64,000 nt of DNA from Runella sp. SP2 (GTDB lineage: Bacteria > Bacteroidota > Bacteroidia > Cytophagales > Spirosomataceae): positions 3,038,001 to 3,102,000 of the forward strand of contig NZ_CP031030.1 in NCBI RefSeq assembly GCF_003711225.1, read 5' to 3'. Of this stretch, positions 8,577-39,977 are shown piece after piece. Positions within the stretch are counted from its first letter, which is position 1, and every line of letters begins with the position of its first letter. The notes beneath the pieces are model-generated. The model made no database searches, had not been told where the DNA came from, and saw nothing but the letters and a program-made list of their open reading frames with translations. A program made the translations under genes and the position numbers.

Positions 8577-11500
8577 ATGAAAAAATACCTTTGGGGACTA
8601 GGTGCGCTGGCCATGACCAGTGGATTAGTCGCTAGTTATCAGAACGATAACCCTAGTCGCGCTTCGCAAAGTAGCCTCGATAGCGTGTATGCCAAACTCA
8701 CGCAAGAGCAAAAACACGACCTCAAATACGCCGTGGGAGCGCTGGAAGTAGCCGATGGCTTGGAAGCCAATCTGTTTGCCTCAGAACCCATGATTACCAA
8801 TCCCACCAACATCGACATCGACCATCGGGGACGGGTATGGGTGCTCGAAGCCTACAACTACCGCCCTGCCATTACGGGAAATCCCACCCACTCCGAAGGT
8901 GATCGCATCCTGATTTTGGAAGATACCAACGGCGACGGCAAAGCTGACCTTAGCAAAGTATTTTACCAAGGCCCCGAAGTGGCTGCCCCGCTGGGCGTTT
9001 TGGTCATGGGCAACCGCGTTTTGGTATCGCAAAGTCCTTACGTTTGGTTGTTTACCGACGAAAATGGGGACGACAAAGCCGACAAAAAAGAGATTATTTT
9101 TCAGGGAATTAAGGGCGCACAGCACGACCACGGAATGCACGCCTTTACCTTTGGCCCCGACGGAAAACTGTATTTTAACTTCGGAAACGAAGGAAATCAA
9201 CTACTGGACGGCAAAGGTCAGCCCGTACTCGACCAAGATGGGCAGCCCATCGACCGCAAAAAATACAAGCAAGGAATGGTGTTCCGTTGCGACCCTGATT
9301 TTAAAAACGTAGAAGTACTCGGGCACAACTTCCGCAACAACTACGAAGTGGCCGTGGACAGCTACGGCACCATGTGGCAGTCGGATAACGACGACGATGG
9401 CAACAAAGGAGTCCGTATTAATTACGTGATGGAATACGGCAACTACGGCTACACCGACGAAATGACGGGGGCAGGCTGGAGCGCCAATCGGACCAATATC
9501 GAAGCCGAAATCCCTTTCCGCCACTGGCACCTAAACGACCCTGGCGTAGTTCCTAACCTACTCCAAACGGGTGCAGGCTCGCCTACGGGTATGGTGATTT
9601 ACGAAGGTGATATGCTGCCAACTGTCTTCCAAAATCAAATGATTCACTGCGATGCGGGGCCCAACGTGGTGCGTTCGTATCCCGTTGAAAAAAATGGCGC
9701 GGGCTACAAAGCCAACATGGTGAACGTACTGTACGGCAAACGCAACCAATGGTTCCGCCCGTCGGATGTGTGCGTGGCGCCAGATGGTTCGCTTTTCGCC
9801 GCCGACTGGTACGACCCAGGCGTGGGTGGTCACCAAGCGGGTGATTTGAACCGTGGACGCATCTATCGCATCACGCCGCCCAATACTTCTTACAAAACTC
9901 CAAACCACGATTTCACCACGTTGGAAGGTGCATTGAAAGCCATTCAAAGCCCCAACGTTTCGGTGCGCTATTTGGCGTGGAACAAAATTCGTAGCCTCGG
10001 CCAAAGCGCGGAAAGTGAGCTATCGAAAATGTACCAAATGTCGCCTAACCCCCGCATGAAAGCGCGGGCGCTGTGGTTGTTGAGCAAACTTCCCAACGGG
10101 CATAACTACGTCAGTGCGGCGTTGAAAGATGCCAACGCTGATTTGCGAATCACTGCCATTCGGGCCGCGCGTCAAATCACAGCCAAAGGGGTGTTGCCGT
10201 TGACTGTTGAGCAATTGAATCTCTTAGCTTCTGACTCAGAACCGCAGGTTCGTCGGGAAGTAGCTTTGGCGATTCGTCATAATACCGACGACCTTGCGGC
10301 AGATATTTGGGCACAATTGGCCAACCGCTACGACGGACAGGACCGCTGGTACCTCGAAGCCCTCGGTGTGTCGGCAGATGGTCAATGGGATAAGTTTTTT
10401 GGCACTTGGCTCAAACTTGCAGGGCCTAACCCAACTGCCTCCGCCAAAGGCAAAGACCTCGTTTGGCGGGCACGGACGGCGGCCTCGGTGCCGTTGTTGG
10501 CCTCGTTGGCAGGTGATAAAAACGTGGCGTTGAAAGACCGCCTTCGTTATTTCAGGGCGTTTGATTTTAACCCAGGCGCTACCGAAAAATCGACGGCGTT
10601 GCTGGAGTTGATGAAAACCAATACCGACACCGAAATCACCAAATTGTGCCTCCGTCACCTCGACCCAGGTTTTGTTAAAACTTCACCTTTGGCGCAGCAA
10701 AACCTTCAAAAACTACTCGACGCCAGCTACGGCACGGGCGAATACATGGATTTGGTACAACGGTTTGAACCTGCCAGCGAAGCAAAACGCTTGTTACAAC
10801 TCGCCCTCGACAAACCGATGCAACGCGAAGGCCGAGACGCCGCGCGTCAGTTGTTGAAACAAGAGCAAATCCCGCTTCTTTGGAGTACTATTAATGGAAA
10901 AGACGTCGCCAAAGCTCAAAATACGTTGATTGCACTTCGTGGAATTGGCAGTAAACAATCGTTAGACATTCTAAAAAGTGTAGCCCTTGACCCCAAACGT
11001 CCCAAAGCCATTCGGACGGAAGCTACGCGGGCGTTGGGTGGAAGTATGGACGGCGAAGACCTCGTGCTCGATTTGCTCCAACAAGGTAAAATCGCCAACG
11101 ATTACAAAGCGGTGGCCGTGCAGGGGGTAAGCGGTGCTTGGCGCAAAAACGTTCGGATTCAAGCCGCCAAATACCTTGATGCTGCTCCTACCAAAACTGG
11201 TAAAAAACTCCCTCCTGTCAGCGAGCTAATGACCCTCACAGGCAACGTCGCCAACGGTAAAACGGTGTTTGCCAACTACTGTGCCATTTGCCACCAAGTA
11301 AACGGCGAAGGATCGGATTTTGGGCCTAAATTATCCGAAATCGGCAGTAAACTTGGTAAAGACGGTCAATACATGGCAATTTTCTACCCAAGTGCGGGAG
11401 TAAGTTTTGGCTATGAAGGCTACGAAGTGAAGTTCAAAGACGGCAGTACCACGGTCGGAATTGTGGCAAGTAAAACTGAAACAGATTTACTACTCAAATT

Positions 11501-32338: not shown

Positions 32339-32588
32339 TGCTCAATTTTATTTACGTTTATCGAATTCTAAAAACTGTTTCGGGCAAATCTTCCGTATTT
32401 GCATACAAATCAGCCAGCAGTAAATCGGCAAAATACGGCGAGAATCAACCAATAGATACTCTCTCAACGTCGGAATCTCTCGATAAAGTTCAAATTTTTC
32501 ACCTCTGTCGTAATTGGCTGTACTTTGTGAGGTTAATTTTTATACCTAAGAAAATTTGGTATGTAGAAATATAATGTATATTTACAGT

Positions 32589-32927
32589 ATGCAACAACAA
32601 ACGTACCTCAAAGGCTGTCTGAGCGCCATTGTTCTTCAACTTTTGCAAGAAAATAGGCGCATGTATGGGTATGAAATTACCCAGCGGGTTCGCGAAATCA
32701 CGGCAGGCGAACTGCAACTGACCGAGGGGGCGCTGTACCCTACCCTCCACAAACTCGAAGCAGAAGGGGTATTGACCACCGAAAACGCGCTCGTGGATGG
32801 ACGCAACCGAAAATATTATAAACTGACCGAAAATGGCCATCAACAAGCCCAAACGGCAGTCTCAGAATTGACCGATTTTGTGTCTAACCTTCAAAAAATT
32901 TTGAACCTTAAACCTTCGCTCGGATGA
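32589..32927 (+). CDS. PadR-family transcriptional regulator
   Basis: 112 aa from ATG 32589 (MQQQTYLKGCLSAIVLQLL); upstream in-frame ATGs exist but add no family sequence. The winged-helix core is complete: MYGYEITQRVREIT, LTEGALYPTLHKLEAEGVL and RNRKYYKLTENGHQQ. Such proteins repress until a ligand binds. Its stop overlaps the start of the next gene (ATGA), a common arrangement in which the partner is a membrane protein. AT-rich half-sites such as atgtatatttacagtat just before the start might be its operator. Confidence 0.93.
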   Translation: MQQQTYLKGCLSAIVLQLLQENRRMYGYEITQRVREITAGELQLTEGALYPTLHKLEAEGVLTTENALVDGRNRKYYKLTENGHQQAQTAVSELTDFVSNLQKILNLKPSLG

Positions 32928-33664
32928 AATTGACGACAGAACAACTCGACCTCATTAACAAAGAAATCATTCAAGGAGGCATCAAATACCAAGATTTGTA
33001 CGAAGAACTCCTCGACCACTACATCACGGCCATTGAAGATAGAATGGCCAACGGAACAGCATTTGGCGAGGCTTTTGGAGAAGTAAATATCAGCTTTGTG
33101 AATTACCGCCCTCCACTTATCGAAAGATATTACTACGATGTCAGGAGCTTAAAAAAAGTTACTCAACACAGTAGTGGCCTTTCAAGGTTACAAAAAGATT
33201 ATGAAAGAAATTTAAAAGGTGAAATCAAAAAAAGACACTGGCAAATTATGAAAAACTATTTTCGCTGGCCCACCATTGTTACGTCGCTTTTAGTGGGGGC
33301 GCTTACTTTTCAGTTTGCGTATTTGGTGCCCTTAAAAATTGGGGTTGGATTCTTCGGCTTCTTGTCTTTTGCTCCCTTACTCTTTTTATTACCCGCGACT
33401 TACCGACACACGATGGGTTATTTCAAGAAAGAGCGCAAGTTTATCAATTCACTCAAATGGACGGCCATCGGTGCGCAAGCCACCTTTGCACTTTCACTTT
33501 TCAATTGTTTCGTGTTTATACCAAGAGTAGTTGGCATAGAACTAAAAGCGTTTTCTCCTCAAATTCAAGTTGCAACGGTAGCCACTCTCATCTGCTTTTA
33601 CCTCGCCTATTCCCTCAGCTTTTACCAGCTCTACAAAGAACGCTTTAAGGTCAAAACGACATAA
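32924..33664 (+). CDS. Membrane protein paired with PadR
   Basis: 246 aa. The N-terminal ~110 residues are soluble and helical (LINKEIIQGGIKYQDLYEELLDHYITAIEDRM), followed by four membrane helices (IVTSLLVGALTFQFAYLV, VGFFGFLSFAPLLFLLP, GAQATFALSLFNCFVFIP, ATVATLICFYLAYSLSF). The same soluble segment accompanies PadR regulators in many Bacteroidota, so the two probably form a sensing unit. Overlaps PadR by 4 bp and is translationally coupled. Function unknown. Confidence 0.8.
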   Translation: MKLTTEQLDLINKEIIQGGIKYQDLYEELLDHYITAIEDRMANGTAFGEAFGEVNISFVNYRPPLIERYYYDVRSLKKVTQHSSGLSRLQKDYERNLKGEIKKRHWQIMKNYFRWPTIVTSLLVGALTFQFAYLVPLKIGVGFFGFLSFAPLLFLLPATYRHTMGYFKKERKFINSLKWTAIGAQATFALSLFNCFVFIPRVVGIELKAFSPQIQVATVATLICFYLAYSLSFYQLYKERFKVKTT

Positions 33665-33667
33665 CCT

Positions 33668-33800
33668 CGATGGCGCGAGCGTCCCCGCTCGTAACCTTTA
33701 TTAACAGGCTTCAAGCCTTTCTTGCGCCAAACTAGGCTCAAAGCCTTTTGATAGTTGTCACGGCTCGGGCCGCCCCGTCGCAAGAGGCGAGCGGCGGCGT
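33668..33800. repeat. Palindromic island repeat, copy A
   Basis: Begins cgatggcgcgagcg, contains a 12-bp central stem (ggcttcaagcct paired with aggctcaaagcc, imperfect) around a ~16-base loop, and ends in a GC-rich right part with gcgagcgg. Starts 4 bp after the membrane-protein stop. Same element at 34373, 35247 and 37449. Confidence 0.9.
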
Positions 33801-33831
33801 TCTGAAATTTACTCACACTATTTTTATTCTT

Positions 33832-34338
33832 ATGTCATCTTTTACTTTCAAATGCTCAAAATGTGATCAAATTCATGAGGGTATTCCAAGTTTCAATTTA
33901 GAAGCTCCTGTATATTATTATTCTATCCCAAGTGAAGAAAGAGAGTTCCGTACTAAACTAACCTCTGACACTTGTGTTATTGATGATGAATACTTCTTTG
34001 CAAAAGGTTTTCTAATAATTCCAGTTTCAGGCTTAGATGAAACTTTATTTTTCACCCCTTGGGTGTCACTAAGTAAATCTAATTTTACTAAATTTCAGGA
34101 ATCCCTTGATATTGAAGATGCTTCAAAATATGGCTCAATGTTTGGTTGGTTTTCGTCACAAATTGAAGGTTTTGGTGATTGTGTAAACCTCAAAACAAAC
34201 CTAATTTTACAAGATAATAATCATAGACCTGATATTGACATTGAGCCAACTGACCATCCTCTCTCCTTAGCCTATCACAATGGAATATCAAAAGAAAAAT
34301 TAATTGAATTAGTTGAAATCTATTTACATAAATGGTAA
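33832..34338 (+). CDS. DUF2199 domain protein
   Basis: 168 aa from ATG 33832; the open frame extends back through the repeat element but that part is not protein-like. N-terminal FKCSKCDQIHEG is a CxxC metal-knuckle, followed by EREFRTKLTSDTCVID, YFFAKGFLIIPV and FFTPWVSLSKSNFTKF, the DUF2199 pattern. Function unknown; these proteins are scattered in accessory regions. AT-rich compared with flanking core genes, and bracketed by repeat copies A and B. Confidence 0.8.
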   Translation: MSSFTFKCSKCDQIHEGIPSFNLEAPVYYYSIPSEEREFRTKLTSDTCVIDDEYFFAKGFLIIPVSGLDETLFFTPWVSLSKSNFTKFQESLDIEDASKYGSMFGWFSSQIEGFGDCVNLKTNLILQDNNHRPDIDIEPTDHPLSLAYHNGISKEKLIELVEIYLHKW

Positions 34339-34372
34339 ACTATGTATAATTTATAGTTTTTTCCCGACTTCC

Positions 34373-34503
34373 CGATGGCGCGAGCGTCCCCGCTCGTGCC
34401 TTATATTAACAGGCTTCAAGCCTTTCTTATGCCAACTAGGCTCGAAGCCTTTTGATAGTCGTCACGGCTCGGGCCGCCCCGCCGCAAGATGCGAGCGGAG
34501 GCG
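34373..34503. repeat. Palindromic island repeat, copy B
   Basis: The best preserved copy: cgatggcgcgagcgtccccg at the left, the ggcttcaagcct/aggctcgaagcc central stem, and gtcacggctcgggccgcccc at the right. It starts 34 bp past the DUF2199 stop. The 34504-34710 stretch that follows is AT-rich and carries no gene I can support. Confidence 0.9.
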
Positions 34504-34710
34504 TGGGTACCTATGAGGAGACACCACTATAACACAGCAATTATTACAACTAGAAAGTCCCTTGGCGAGCCTTCTCTAATATTTTCAATAAAAAAATAGG
34601 AAAATTTCTTAAAATTTGTTTCAATTGCTTAAAAATCGCTGCATACAATAGTGCTGGATGGTGCTGGTCTTTCGTACAATAACAAGTTGAAAAAATAAAA
34701 TACAGACTCT

Positions 34711-35082
34711 TTGACATTAACTGAAAAAATACTTGTTTCGAGTAAAGACAACTTTACAATTGCACATAGAATTAAAATTGCAATTGAGGAGTCAAATAAA
34801 TTATTTGCGATTTATGAAAATGAATCTGTCAATATTTTCAATAGCATTTTCGATTGGTTGACTTTTTTAGACTCCGAAGGCTATCCTCAATTACAAGATA
34901 TTGACTCAATAATTATTTTTTTCACTCTCATGCAAGCAAGTTCGTTTGTTGAAGAAATAAACAAATATTTAAAAGTAAAATCTGACGATGATATTTTTCA
35001 ATTCTACCGATTAAATGAAAATATTGTTTGGGGGTATTTGGTTAAATATGTATCAACCAAGGTAGTATATTTTCCCAACTGA
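34711..35082 (+). CDS. Hypothetical protein, uncertain start
   Basis: Up to 123 aa, starting at TTG 34711; a stop lies five codons upstream and no ATG occurs in the first 70 codons. It is an acidic, mainly helical sequence with no family I recognise (FNSIFDWLTFLDSEGYPQLQDIDS). It may be a real AT-rich accessory gene or the remnant of a longer one lacking its 5' end. No signal peptide or membrane segment. It lies between repeat copies B and C. Confidence 0.4.
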   Translation: MTLTEKILVSSKDNFTIAHRIKIAIEESNKLFAIYENESVNIFNSIFDWLTFLDSEGYPQLQDIDSIIIFFTLMQASSFVEEINKYLKVKSDDDIFQFYRLNENIVWGYLVKYVSTKVVYFPN

Positions 35083-35246
35083 CCAGCATAGTAAATAGAT
35101 TGATAAACTTTCAACAAAATACAGTTTGTTATATTGAGTTTTATGACTTGCATATTTTCGTTGGACATGTCATTTCAAGGTAGTTTCAATAGGTTTTTAA
35201 AATTATTGGGGAACAATAACTTACAGGACAGTTTCAAAGGTTTCCC

Positions 35247-35360
35247 CGATGGCACGAGTGCCACCGCTCGTGCCTTTTATTAGCAGGCTTCAAGCCTTTC
35301 TTATGCCAACTAGGCTCGAAGGCTTTTGCGGACCGAACCGCCCTGTTGCAAGGTGCGAGC
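35247..35360. repeat. Palindromic island repeat, copy C (degenerate)
   Basis: Left half cgatggcacgagtgccaccg and the central stem are kept; the right end is shortened and diverged (gcggaccgaaccgccctgttgc). It runs directly into the recombinase remnant with no spacing, suggesting insertion into that gene. The 35083-35246 stretch before it shows nothing. Confidence 0.85.
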
Positions 35361-35361
35361 T

Positions 35362-35598
35362 CTCAGGCACAGCTACACTACTCAATTACTCGAAAAGGGC
35401 ATTGATGTAAGAACCTTACAAATATTATTGGGGCATACCTCACTCGAAACCACCATGAAATATCTACATGTGAGTGGTGAAGTCTGTGAACATGACATTT
35501 CTCATCAAAAAAAACCAGAAAAACTTTGCATTTCGTTCATTTCACCTATACATTTGTTAATAAGCTACAAAGTAGCCCAAAAATCATTAAACAACTAA
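35362..35598 (+). pseudogene. Tyrosine recombinase, C-terminal remnant
   Basis: About 78 codons. [20 protein letters not shown], then [18 protein letters not shown], is the C-terminal box of phage-type integrases/XerC-D relatives, with the HxxR-type arginine (RHS), the LLGH histidine and the Y of the catalytic tyrosine motif. The N-terminal and first catalytic arginine parts are missing; repeat copy C occupies their place. The tail after HVS is not typical. Cannot be active. It is the only mobile-element protein trace in the island. Confidence 0.8.
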
Positions 35599-35667
35599 TA
35601 GTCAACATTTTAAAACGACCATTTATTTCATACTTTATATTTTGGAATTATGAGAAAGTAAAAGTAT

Positions 35668-36354
35668 ATGAATTACAAGATTTTTTCAGATGAAAGATAC
35701 AATAATAACGTAATTTATATTGGAGGTATCTTTTGTACAAGCGAACGAGAACATATCTTATTGCCCCTTTTGCAAAGTGTAAAAGAAAATTTTAATTGCG
35801 AAGGAGAATTTAAGTGGACAAAAATTTCAAAGAGATCAATTATTGCTTACAAGCAATGGTTAAACATATTCTTTGATGACCCTCATGTTCGATTTTTAAT
35901 TTTTAAAATTGACAAGAATACTTTGGAGTGGAGAAATTTTGAAAATGATAGTGGTTATAGAAATGCTCTAATTTCAGTTTATATTCAATTTTTATTATCT
36001 ATTTTCAAAACAAAAAGCGACAATAATATTGGGTGGTTTATAAGTCATGATTTCGGTTTTTTCAAAAAAGATACTGATATAAAAAGCATTGAGATTAAAC
36101 TTAACAAAGTTTATAAAAGGTCTTTGCCAAACAGAAAAAGGGTCATCCAACTATCAAAAACCATTGACTCTAAAAAAGACAATTTAATTCAGTTATCTGA
36201 TTTATTAATTGGAAGTTTAGATTATACATTAAATCAAATAGAACCCGAATCTCAACCTAAAAATGAATTTTTAACATATTTTAGAAATTATTATAGTCTA
36301 AACCTATACACCAAAAATAAGTTAAAAAAAAATTGTCATTTACGATTGGGTTAG
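35668..36354 (+). CDS. DUF3800 domain protein
   Basis: 228 aa. The N-terminal FSDERYNNNVIYIGGIF and C-terminal DNLIQLSDLLIGSLDYTL match the DUF3800 family, an RNase H-like fold with acidic residues (D8/E9 and D near residue 177). Members occur near mobile elements and defence genes; activity is unproven. AT-rich, as expected for an acquired gene. Full-length and intact, 69 bp after the recombinase remnant. Confidence 0.75.
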   Translation: MNYKIFSDERYNNNVIYIGGIFCTSEREHILLPLLQSVKENFNCEGEFKWTKISKRSIIAYKQWLNIFFDDPHVRFLIFKIDKNTLEWRNFENDSGYRNALISVYIQFLLSIFKTKSDNNIGWFISHDFGFFKKDTDIKSIEIKLNKVYKRSLPNRKRVIQLSKTIDSKKDNLIQLSDLLIGSLDYTLNQIEPESQPKNEFLTYFRNYYSLNLYTKNKLKKNCHLRLG

Positions 36355-36726
36355 TCCTTTAACTTTTTGGGATAAAAAGCTAGAATCATAAGCAACTGAC
36401 ACAGTCTGATATTATTAATACATCCCCGACATTTAATTTGCTGAGTTTTTTTAAAGAACCTCAAGCATCACGCCGACAAGAAATTAGAGCGATTTCAAGG
36501 AGTCTTCAACTTTTTAGGGGGACAGCAACCACCTTTTTTCAAGGAATGCTTGCTTTATTCTAAATAGTCACTAAATTTGTTTTTGTTTGGTTAGGTTTCA
36601 AAATCAAATTAGAACGCGTCCCTGCGTTCCTTTTTACCATTCGTGCACCTCAAGTAATAAATCAAAAAAAGGCAAAACACGTATAAAGCCCAACTATCTC
36701 AATGCTTTTGGTTGGAATAAGAGAAT
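36355..36726. other. Intergenic stretch with possible gene remnant
   Basis: A short open frame around 36440-36560 (reading SFFKEPQASRRQEIRAISRS and onward to a stop) has no usable start and no family I recognise. It may be debris of an acquired gene. No hairpins or repeats were noted in the remainder. Confidence 0.3.
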
Positions 36727-37137
36727 ATGAAGAAAACTTTAAAAATAATAACCTCAATCATTGGTATTTTCATTTTTACTCTATTCTTATTTTTATATTT
36801 TCTATTTCGTCCTGTAGGAAGTGGACAGTGGGAACTTGATAATTTTGAAAAAATTACCCAAAAAGATATTTACATTGATAAAAGCCCAAGTTCTGGTTTC
36901 GTTTTTTTGGTTAATGGTAGCATAGATGATAGTTTAACTATTTTGGCTGAGGACATATCACTAGACAGAAAACATACAATCAACTACTTAGGAAGTAAAG
37001 TTTTAATGAAAGGCAATTACGAAAATCAAGAATTTTTACGATTTGATTATTACAGCAAAGGGCATGTTAGATTTTCGTGCATACCCTTTAACAAAAAAAT
37101 AAAAGGAAAAATAAAAATAATGTGGAGTGCATATTAA
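36727..37137 (+). CDS. Hypothetical single-pass membrane protein
   Basis: 136 aa. One N-terminal membrane anchor (IITSIIGIFIFTLFLFLYFLF) and a ~105-residue exported domain of beta character (FVFLVNGSIDDSLTILAED, FLRFDYYSKGHVRFS). No family recognised. AT-rich codon use like the other island genes. Monocistronic, 372 bp after the DUF3800 gene. Confidence 0.6.
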   Translation: MKKTLKIITSIIGIFIFTLFLFLYFLFRPVGSGQWELDNFEKITQKDIYIDKSPSSGFVFLVNGSIDDSLTILAEDISLDRKHTINYLGSKVLMKGNYENQEFLRFDYYSKGHVRFSCIPFNKKIKGKIKIMWSAY

Positions 37138-37336
37138 AATTTCGACAATAAACTATATTACAAGTAATTGCAAATCAACAAATCAACCCCAAGCACCACA
37201 ATACTTTTGGCTAAAAGAAAAAAAGCAAAACTACAATTGATTAACCTCATCATCCGTAAGCCCAGTTGCTTCCTTAATTTGAGATTTAGATAAACCCATT
37301 TCCCGCATTTTTTTACTACTTTTTTTACTCCCTGTT

Positions 37337-37367
37337 GTACGGAGTCTTCCGTAGGGAGACTCCGTAC
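37337..37367. repeat. Perfect hairpin
   Basis: An 11-bp perfect stem (gtacggagtct/agactccgtac) with a 9-base loop in the 605-bp gap between the hypothetical gene and glyS. No T-run follows directly. Role unknown. Confidence 0.55.
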
Positions 37368-37448
37368 CGAAAATAACCAGAGTGTTTACAACACGGTAAG
37401 TGCCAAACCATTTGCTTCATCGCCTCCCAAACCCCTTTATCCATGCTC

Positions 37449-37565
37449 CGATGGCGCGAACATCCTCGCTCATACCCTTTATGAGCCGTCTTCAAGCCTT
37501 TCTTGCCCCCAAACTAGGCTCGAAGCCTTGGAATAGTGAGCACGAGCAGGATGCTCGCGCAATCG
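37449..37565. repeat. Palindromic island repeat, copy D (full palindrome)
   Basis: In this copy the outer ends are clearly complementary: cgatggcgcgaacatcct at the left and aggatgctcgcgcaatcg at the right, around the ttcaagcc/ggctcgaa core. The whole ~117 bp is one imperfect palindrome, which the other copies show less clearly. Confidence 0.88.
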
Positions 37566-37596
37566 TCTTTGTTTTTCCTTTTGTTACCAAAACTTC

Positions 37597-37616
37597 GCCT
37601 CGCTGAGGCTTTTTTG
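37597..37616 (+). terminator. Short plus-strand terminator-like hairpin
   Basis: Stem gcctc/gaggc with loop gct, followed by six T residues. The stem is short. It may close transcripts entering from the island. Confidence 0.4.
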
Positions 37617-37642
37617 TTTTTAGGCGTTTAACCCAATAAAAA

Positions 37643-37678
37643 AGCCTTTGCCAGCGTTGTTAAACTTTGACAAAGGCT
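37643..37678 (-). terminator. Terminator of glyS
   Basis: An 8-bp stem (agcctttg/caaaggct), extended by partial pairing. On the minus strand it is followed by a T-rich tract. It lies 65 bp past the glyS stop. A second hairpin (gttcccgaa/ttcgggaac, 37686-37709) lies between, so termination may be in two steps. Confidence 0.65.
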
Positions 37679-37742
37679 AGTAACTGTTCCCGAACTACGA
37701 TTCGGGAACGTTTATGGGTTAGCGTCTCCGACGCCACGGCAA

Positions 37743-39227
37743 TTAAATCGCTTCCAAAATCCGCTGTTCCGATACGGCGTAGCCAATCTTCGCTTTGAGT
37801 TCGTTGATGTGTACGCGCTCTTGCTCCATGCTATCGCGGTGACGAATCGTCACGGTGTTGTCTTCCAACGTTTGGTAATCAACCGCAATACAGAACGGCG
37901 TTCCGATAAGGTCTTGGCGCGTATAACGCTTACCGATCGCGTCGCGCTCTTCGTAAAACACGCGGAATTCGGTTTTCAACGCTTTTTCGATTTCGCGGGC
38001 TTTTTCTGGCAAACCGTCTTTTTTCACCAATGGGAAAATCGCGGCTTTGAAAGGCGCCAACGCAGGGTGCAATTTCAACACCGTACGCTCTTTTTGGTTT
38101 TCGCCTTCGCCCACCATTTCTTTGGTAAAGGCATTGCAGAATACCGCCAAAAACAAACGGTCTGCTCCCACCGACGTTTCTACCACGTACGGAATGTAGT
38201 TTCCGAAAGGCTTACCGTTTTCGTCGAGGTCGTTATCAAAATACTGTTGCTTTTTCTTTGAAAGCTCTTGGTGGTTTTTCAAGTCGAAATCCGTACGAGA
38301 GTGGATCCCCTCAATTTCGCGGAAGCCAAACGGAAACTGATATTCAATATCCACGGCGGCATTGGCATAGTGCGCCAATTTTTCGTGAATGTGGAATTTC
38401 AATTTTTCGACAGGAAGACCCACCGCTTGGTGAAATTTCAAACGCGTATCGCGCCATTGTTCGTACCACGCCATTTCGGTGCCAGGACGTACAAAAAACT
38501 GCATTTCCATTTGTTCAAACTCCCGCATACGGAACGTAAACTGACGCGCCACAATCTCGTTACGGAACGCTTTCCCGATTTGGGCAATTCCAAACGGAAT
38601 CTTCATCCGACCCGATTTCTGTACGTTCAAGAAGTTCACAAAAATCCCTTGAGCTGTTTCGGGGCGCAAATAAATCAAGTTGGAATCTTCGGCCACCGAA
38701 CCCACTTGCGTGCTGAACATGAGGTTAAACTGACGCACTTCTGTCCAGTTGGACGTGCCCGAGATAGGACATTTAATCCCTTCGGCAATGATTAATTCAC
38801 GCACCGCCTCAAGGTTATTATCACCCAACAAACGTCCCATTTCGTTCAACAACTCCTGCGCTTTTTCGGTCTGACCCTCAGCGGCATACTGCTCGGCTTT
38901 TCCTTCGAGAAGTTGGTCGGCACGATAACGCTTCTTTGAATCTTTGTTATCAATCATGGGGTCGTTGAAGCCATCCACGTGACCCGACGCCTTCCACGTG
39001 AGCGGGTGCATGAAAATAGCCGCGTCAATCCCAACGATGTTGTCATTGAGTTGCGTCATGGCTTTCCACCACATGTTTTTGAGGTTGTTTTTCAGCTCTA
39101 CCCCGTTTTGACCGTAGTCATAAACTGCTTGTAAACCGTCATAGATTTCAGAAGAAGGAAATACAAAACCGTATTCTTTGGCGTGAGAAACGATGTCTTG
39201 TAAAGAAGTTGCTGGAGCTTGGCTCAT
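37743..39227 (-). CDS. glyS: Glycine--tRNA ligase, dimeric type
   Basis: 494 aa class II aminoacyl-tRNA synthetase of the alpha2 (single-chain) type used by Bacteroidota. Motifs: FPSSEIYDGLQAVYDYGQNG near the N-terminus, motif 2 FRNEIVARQFTFRMREFEQMEMQFF, LRPETAQGIF, and motif 3 SVGADRLFLAVF. The C-terminal anticodon-binding domain starts near LKLHPALAPFKAAIFPL. It charges tRNA-Gly with glycine in the cytoplasm and is a core gene. Length is normal. Monocistronic; the start is 155 bp from the divergent VapB-like gene. Confidence 0.97.
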   Translation of the reverse strand: MSQAPATSLQDIVSHAKEYGFVFPSSEIYDGLQAVYDYGQNGVELKNNLKNMWWKAMTQLNDNIVGIDAAIFMHPLTWKASGHVDGFNDPMIDNKDSKKRYRADQLLEGKAEQYAAEGQTEKAQELLNEMGRLLGDNNLEAVRELIIAEGIKCPISGTSNWTEVRQFNLMFSTQVGSVAEDSNLIYLRPETAQGIFVNFLNVQKSGRMKIPFGIAQIGKAFRNEIVARQFTFRMREFEQMEMQFFVRPGTEMAWYEQWRDTRLKFHQAVGLPVEKLKFHIHEKLAHYANAAVDIEYQFPFGFREIEGIHSRTDFDLKNHQELSKKKQQYFDNDLDENGKPFGNYIPYVVETSVGADRLFLAVFCNAFTKEMVGEGENQKERTVLKLHPALAPFKAAIFPLVKKDGLPEKAREIEKALKTEFRVFYEERDAIGKRYTRQDLIGTPFCIAVDYQTLEDNTVTIRHRDSMEQERVHINELKAKIGYAVSEQRILEAI

Positions 39228-39382: not shown

Positions 39383-39589
39383 ATGAGAACGAATATAGAA
39401 ATCGACGAAAGCAAAATTGCGGCCATACGGCTACTGAATTCAAATCTGAAGACGAAAAAAGAAATCATTGATATTGCCTTGGAAGAGCTTATAAACACCA
39501 TGAGGCGGCAACGTTTACGCCAAATGCGTGGCAAAGGTTGGGAGGGAGATTTAGATGAAATGAGAACCCATGAAGTACCGCTTATATGA
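39383..39589 (+). CDS. VapB-like antitoxin
   Basis: 68 aa ribbon-helix-helix-type antitoxin: MRTNIEIDESKIAAIRLLNSNLKTKKEIIDIALEELI is the DNA-binding segment typical of VapB proteins regulating their own operon. The C-terminal part (MRGKGWEGDLDEMR) should bind the toxin. It overlaps the PIN toxin gene by 20 bp. Confidence 0.88.
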   Translation: MRTNIEIDESKIAAIRLLNSNLKTKKEIIDIALEELINTMRRQRLRQMRGKGWEGDLDEMRTHEVPLI

Positions 39590-39977
39590 CACCTCCGCTT
39601 GGATAGATTTCCGAAAGAACGTGGCCTCTGCTCTAACCAATCAGTTAGATGAAGACCTACTGGATAACTTAGTGTGTATCTGTCCCGTCATTATTCAGGA
39701 AGTATTACAGGGAATCCGAGAAGATGCTGATTTTGAAGCGTTAAAAGAAGATTTCAAAGCCTTGAAAATATTACAATTAGAGGCTACTGAAGTAGCTGTT
39801 GCAGCCGCCCAACTCTACCGCCAACTCCGCAAAAAGGGTGTCACCATTCGCAAACCCAATGACTGCTTGATTGCGGCTTATGCTCTTCATTTTGACGTAG
39901 AACTTTGCCACAACGACGTAGATTTTGATCAAATTGCCGCCCATACTGACTTAAAAATTTGGAAACCAGCTTTGTAA
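39570..39977 (+). CDS. VapC-like PIN-domain ribonuclease toxin
   Basis: 135 aa. PIN acidic residues: D7 in LYDTSAWIDF, E in IIQEVLQGI, D in KPNDCLIAAYAL, and the terminal HNDVDFDQIA. It would cleave RNA when released from the antitoxin. It belongs to a different PIN subgroup from the DUF2281-linked toxin in the ccm operon. A normal antitoxin-first operon, beside glyS. Confidence 0.92.
   Translation: MKYRLYDTSAWIDFRKNVASALTNQLDEDLLDNLVCICPVIIQEVLQGIREDADFEALKEDFKALKILQLEATEVAVAAAQLYRQLRKKGVTIRKPNDCLIAAYALHFDVELCHNDVDFDQIAAHTDLKIWKPAL

Follow-up and report, generated by a model that had tools for sequence, protein, structure and literature searches.

Most accounts of hairpin-forming doublets of repetitive extragenic palindromic (REP) sequences, known as REPINs, treat them as small repeats that are selfish or domesticated. 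Here we describe a family of palindromic elements in Runella, starting from a locus of Runella sp. SP2 (genome G000) within a 64,000-nucleotide stretch of contig NZ_CP031030.1 (positions 3,038,001 to 3,102,000 of the forward strand, hereafter the window). Four copies alternate there with accessory genes, a pattern in which an initial annotation had seen a cassette array or the movement of a miniature inverted-repeat transposable element (MITE).

REPINs and bacterial interspersed mosaic elements (BIMEs), with their REP-associated tyrosine transposases (RAYTs, or TnpAREP), share with the Runella element an inverted hairpin pair, dispersal and copies flanking the transposase gene, as given in the consulted parts of PMC3116915 and PMC2817692. 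Unlike them, the Runella element, of about 119 bp, lacks the GT[AG]G head and has an extra inner hairpin pair, and its arrays are direct-oriented and spaced by accessory genes of up to several kb. Tandem REPIN clusters including flanking sequence are on record in the consulted part of PMC3116915. Subclass 2.6 of TnpAREP (RAYT group 5 of Bertels) occurs mostly in Bacteroidetes; according to the consulted part of PMC6006769, ‘atypical secondary structures’ lie on either side of its genes and recur at other genomic positions. Judged by eye and on motifs only, the Runella RAYTs fit the length and motifs tabulated there for this subclass (about 179 aa, WQ and SS motifs, a YIH[QN]NP-like motif) and likewise have flanking atypical structures, except that SHLH stands in place of NH[LIV]H; gene-bearing arrays do not feature in that part of the account. 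A related observation comes from Thauera, where REP arrays immediately flank exopolysaccharide genes, although such clusters near gene groups consist of GTAG repeats and the portion of the account at hand (PMC3733652) describes no differing genes between copies at matching sites in related species.

The mobile repeat is of a known kind; the unusual part is its gene-bearing, mostly uniformly oriented arrays. Titles and abstract openings in the literature, a partial coverage and weak evidence of absence, described no Runella element family or gene-bearing arrays. We consider it probable that the element is an atypical REPIN, spread by a RAYT and amplified locally, whose direct repeats serve as hotspots of accessory gene gain and loss. 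Copies at fixed positions of the chromosome mark the places where closely related species differ in accessory genes. A RAYT/REP system is thereby tied to turnover of gene content, and concrete loci become available for testing the connection.

A family of paired hairpins associated with a RAYT gene

The four window copies, about 119-138 bp long, share one orientation (+) and lie at 33668-33805 (A), 34372-34506 (B), 35246-35365 (C) and 37448-37566 (D). In a whole-genome BLAST search with copy B, A was matched at E = 8e-47, C at 4e-28 and D at 2e-14, so that their similarity is not due to chance. All four fold better than nearly all of 200 dinucleotide shuffles (z of -2.2, -4.7, -2.6 and -4.0 for A to D, with 3, 0, 2 and 0 shuffles folding as well), which bears out the four palindromic copies first annotated. 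Some details of that description need correction: A and B share the core, with a GC-rich extension replacing the usual right arm, the truncated right arm of C continues straight into a tyrosine recombinase fragment absent from the initial annotation, and D, described as a full palindrome, is an imperfect one. A known RNA family was rejected, the sole Rfam match in window 32500-38800 being a miRNA model far under its cut-off.

We built a covariance model from 21 copies and scanned 13 Runella genomes, scoring 150 candidates per genome, so that match counts are lower bounds. Matches at E <= 0.01 came from eleven genomes, each with between 1 and 115 rows. At E <= 0.001 the SP2 genome had 65 strand-wise matches, counted as at least 33 places, and R. 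defluvii DSM 17976 (G002) at least 111 strand-wise matches. Three weaker places (24-26 bits) among the loci compared bring the SP2 total to 36 copies in 17 loci, eight of the copies standing alone in their locus. The SP2 copies are clustered: neighbours lie <=6 kb apart in 19 cases, where 1.04 would be expected and none of 2000 draws gave more than 5. All 21 left ends begin with GAT[AG]G[CT], and the consensus runs from an outer hairpin through a TTATT-like stretch, an inner hairpin and a spacer to the same components reversed. The element is accordingly composed, as REPINs are, of two hairpin-forming REP-like units in inverted orientation. The local hairpins covary (16 two-sided cells against 4.7 in shuffles, none of 500 shuffles reaching 16); the corresponding figure for a global palindrome is 8 against 5.4, reached in 69 of 500.

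In R. defluvii, element copies stand on both sides of a RAYT gene (locus L071, 8135-8662), which encodes a 175-aa protein; the array around it numbers seven copies, one of them partial. This protein and those of R. limosa DSM 17973 (G003) and a third Runella score 100, 103.7 and 104.5 bits against NCBIfam REP_Tyr_transpos (cut-off 80 bits). All three RAYT proteins at >=58% identity, query included, are element-linked, and the element lies within about 1.5 kb in six of 29 loci with RAYT relatives (L150, L151, L152, L174, L176 and, weakly, L165). None of 30 loci from a PF01797 search carried the element, although this set is a poor control because only best-scoring matches became loci, at least four genes also occur among the RAYT relatives, and the three RAYTs linked to the element are missing although they too match PF01797. 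Among plasmid records, six held RAYT relatives (the best at 52%, in Bernardetia) and none an element match. Since copies lie beside a RAYT in three Runella, we read the element as an atypical Bacteroidota REPIN with this transposase as its likely partner; the earlier suspicion of a MITE-like mobile repeat was well placed, given a dispersed family and a matching transposase gene in sister species. An element of this build, two inverted REP-like hairpin units with an inner hairpin pair, would have been spread as single-stranded DNA by the RAYT, an enzyme of HUH/Y1 type that is still encoded in R. defluvii and R. limosa and was not found in the SP2 genome.

Variable gene content between element copies

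Element-free and filled alleles both exist at the window site, as the initial annotation had proposed to check. The site is element-free in R. zeae, R. aurantiaca, strain MFBS21 and a Runella metagenome-assembled genome; R. limosa carries a single degraded copy, R. defluvii three copies with different genes and SP2 four, a seventh Runella record ending too early to score. Relative to R. defluvii, variation halts at or within element copies: copy A forms the left boundary of the variable region, and in copy D, its right boundary, synteny resumes at 37454. The element-free sites hold about 110 bp with other inverted repeats, of the types ACCACAGAG/CTCTGTGGT and ACCACAAAG/CTTTGTGGT (L056, L057, L058 and L059, near 10740-10830).

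The contrast extends to other loci. Across 22 mutually overlapping locus pairs out of 29 syntenic ones, the conserved share of bases between copies is 28% in one direction and 33% in the other, while the 3 kb outside reach 73% and 74%; seven of the 22 pairs in one direction and six in the other have no interval to count. On the whole, then, the DNA between copies varies far more than the DNA just outside, as had been supposed, and its G+C content is lower (0.388 against 0.446 in the same pairs). Contrary cases occur: L035/L043 is 98% conserved between copies, and conservation outside the copies is poor for L036/L044 and L039/L047.

The intergenic site between recG and pcrA was also compared. 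SP2 has a solo copy there, the model finds none in G001, G004, G006 and G010, and a copy is present in G007, where the contig breaks. At the same site G005 (L115) has another RAYT, accompanied by palindromic repeats of its own, and R. defluvii and R. limosa carry inserts of 3.9 kb and 1.1 kb with weak element remnants of 25 and 23 bits (G008, G009, G011 and G012 were not comparable and were left out). A search for insertion alleles among 14 joined loci in four genomes yielded six aligned sites. Two were clean (L070 and L073), one with a possible 5-bp repeat and the other with an identical 30-bp repeat on both sides; the remaining four contain remnants or other repeats. A classical MITE moved by a DDE transposase would be expected to leave a target duplication of fixed length at such sites.

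Repeats and accessory genes might both gather in permissive intergenic DNA with no causal link between them. The eight solitary SP2 copies, the other repeats occupying the same intergenic sites in relatives and the weak remnants in the two recG-pcrA inserts are all consistent with such a coincidence, yet it leaves unexplained why variation stops at or in the copies at the window site and why conservation differs so sharply inside and outside them over the 22 locus pairs, and we regard it as unlikely. The initial annotation had itself counted copies equally common beside core genes, with no empty and filled alleles, as evidence against its proposal; the solitary copies partly bear this out, yet both kinds of allele exist.

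The cargo was characterised from gene calls made with our own simple codon-score script. Of 72 genes, 46 share the strand of the element and 26 are on the opposite one. Eighty-six cargo proteins of >=70 aa (from 89 called, and including some core-looking genes and the RAYT itself) match 60 Pfam families, the commonest being PDDEXK_2 (Rpn-type) with four. The cargo is not enriched in defence families, and a reading of the arrays as defence islands was rejected: at E <= 1e-5 there were 8 PADLOC families for these proteins against 46 for 86 flanking proteins drawn from 314, in counts where several models may match one protein. Rpn-type PD-(D/E)XK genes adjoin or lie between copies at L050 7949-10033, L033 8294-9154 and L048 9651-10481, and at one syntenic site two species have AbiU-like genes (L044 6658-8397 and L036 5087-6790) immediately upstream of the first copy.

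Proposed growth of the arrays and movement of the cargo

Neighbouring copies with clear strands have the same orientation in 27 of 27 pairs, 40 of 67 pairs being set aside as unclear. In a test that took in 94 of 122 copies, with one of 20 site groups pooling several nearby arrays, the nearest relative of a copy was at the same syntenic site in 80 of 93 cases (7.8 in shuffles), and the nearest copy in another species was at the syntenic site in 69 of 80. Copies at a site are thus local subfamilies, and in some arrays the unit repeated in tandem is simply the element with a short linker. A masked-locus comparison found no whole inter-element unit at two different sites among the loci compared. 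Outside syntenic sites it matched Rpn-type genes at 72-84% identity, among them those of R. defluvii L048 and L050, both between copies and 73% identical over 642 bp; the remaining matches comprise two other gene matches at 72-73% (L041/L080 and L039/L083) and short repeats. Given the local subfamilies and the absence of a whole unit at two sites, the balance of evidence points to duplication on the spot with recombination rather than to cassettes that bring an element with them, although gene conversion among neighbours could also homogenise the copies.

The probable course of events would then be that, after landing, a resident copy was duplicated in direct orientation, and that the resulting direct repeats of ~120 bp are hotspots for recombination. 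Accessory DNA lying between copies would be gained, lost and shuffled as these recombine, by homologous or unequal exchange, either inside the chromosome or with Runella DNA arriving from outside. We infer both the movement of the element by a RAYT and the exchange of cargo by homologous recombination.

Several results weigh against this scenario of a RAYT-spread and locally amplified REPIN. On the side of the element, the canonical GT[AG]G is found at the hairpin foot in none of the 21 copies, and the global palindrome beats shuffles on two other measures (12/500 and 1/500), so that local hairpins are favoured rather than proven. On the side of the transposase, the SP2 genome has no RAYT of the element-linked clade, its nearest relative being 29% identical and not linked to the element; the R. 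limosa RAYT is flanked on both sides by weak element matches (25-34 bits), and the third Runella RAYT has a matched element on one side only. No end is shared by the two clean insertion alleles. Looser strand thresholds give 2 disagreeing pairs of 35 and 3 of 43, and strand calls by the model in the three main genomes agree in 55 of 66 pairs and disagree in 11; the partial intake of the similarity test and its one pooled group count here as well. Related Rpn-type genes occur at several non-syntenic sites at 72-84% identity. No recombination event was caught in the Runella loci compared, and end homology cannot alone explain the entry of a first foreign gene.

Two neighbouring copies might instead serve as the ends of a composite cassette whose intervening DNA the RAYT moves in one piece and in single-stranded form, comparable to a REPtron in which cargo has taken the place of the transposase gene. 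A RAYT gene between two copies is arranged just as a cargo interval is, copies within an array mostly share orientation, and the related Rpn-type genes of L048 and L050 lie between copies at two R. defluvii sites. Against these stand the local subfamilies and the lack of a whole inter-element unit at two sites among the loci compared, and we judge such cassettes quite unlikely. In its general form, in which a RAYT would use neighbouring REPINs as cassette ends and mobilise any gene between, REPIN-based gene capture is very doubtful. Element-moved cargo units were rejected, only single related genes recurring among the loci compared, and the earlier view of the genes as cassettes carried by the element is not supported.

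In integrons, attC sites have the core sites RYYYAAC and GTTRRRY. An integron-like array, each copy being the site of a tyrosine recombinase and each gene moving with its site as a circle, is highly improbable, for although the copies fold, mostly share orientation, alternate with genes more often on their own strand and include one (C) abutted by a recombinase fragment, the core pair is found in none of the 21 copies (nor in the four of the window), the window locus holds only a ~40-aa C-terminal match and no intact integrase (the whole genome was not searched), there are 17 separate loci in one genome, and cargo would bring its own site, yet the subfamilies are site-specific. The integron/attC reading was rejected on the core sites, the fragmentary recombinase and the local subfamilies, and the suggested cassette system lacks support.

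Genes and minor features of the window locus

The three gaps between the window copies have 30-31% G+C, in agreement with the AT-rich genes first described there, and the predicted DUF2199 and DUF3800 proteins were recovered by Pfam. The DUF2199 gene (33832-34338, +, 168 aa; PF09965, E 1.6e-39) lies between copies A and B. Between B and C is an open reading frame (34711-35082, +) with a TTG start for a hypothetical protein of 123 aa, which has no match in Pfam, NCBIfam or PADLOC. The tyrosine recombinase remnant that abuts copy C (35326-35598, +) is a C-terminal piece with ~40 aa of homology (PF00589 residues 12-50); its NCBIfam matches, to XerC, XerA/integron integrase and integron integrase, are all far under their cut-offs. 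It is followed by the DUF3800 gene (35668-36354, +, 228 aa; PF12686), whose product matches the candidate defence family PDC-M04A (PADLOC, E 1.3e-26), and by an open reading frame for a small hypothetical protein of 136 aa, judged a membrane protein by eye (36727-37137, +), with nothing over cut-off in Pfam or NCBIfam.

The variable region is flanked on the left by a conserved gene of 246 aa (32924-33664, +) with relatives in seven named Runella records, and on the right by a conserved class II aminoacyl-tRNA synthetase gene (37743-39227, -; PF00587, PF03129), which is syntenic in six of the seven Runella loci compared, the seventh ending short of it. Another repeat, GTTCCCGAACTACGATTCGGGAAC followed by GCGTCTCCGACGCC, lies at 37686-37735, and in R. 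limosa the solo element contains a relative of this GTTCCCGAACTACGATTCGGGAAC/GCGTCTCCGACGCC repeat (about L053 10779-10830). Beyond the synthetase gene, a small gene pair at 39383-39977 resembles by eye a VapBC-type toxin-antitoxin operon, and R. defluvii has the same pair.

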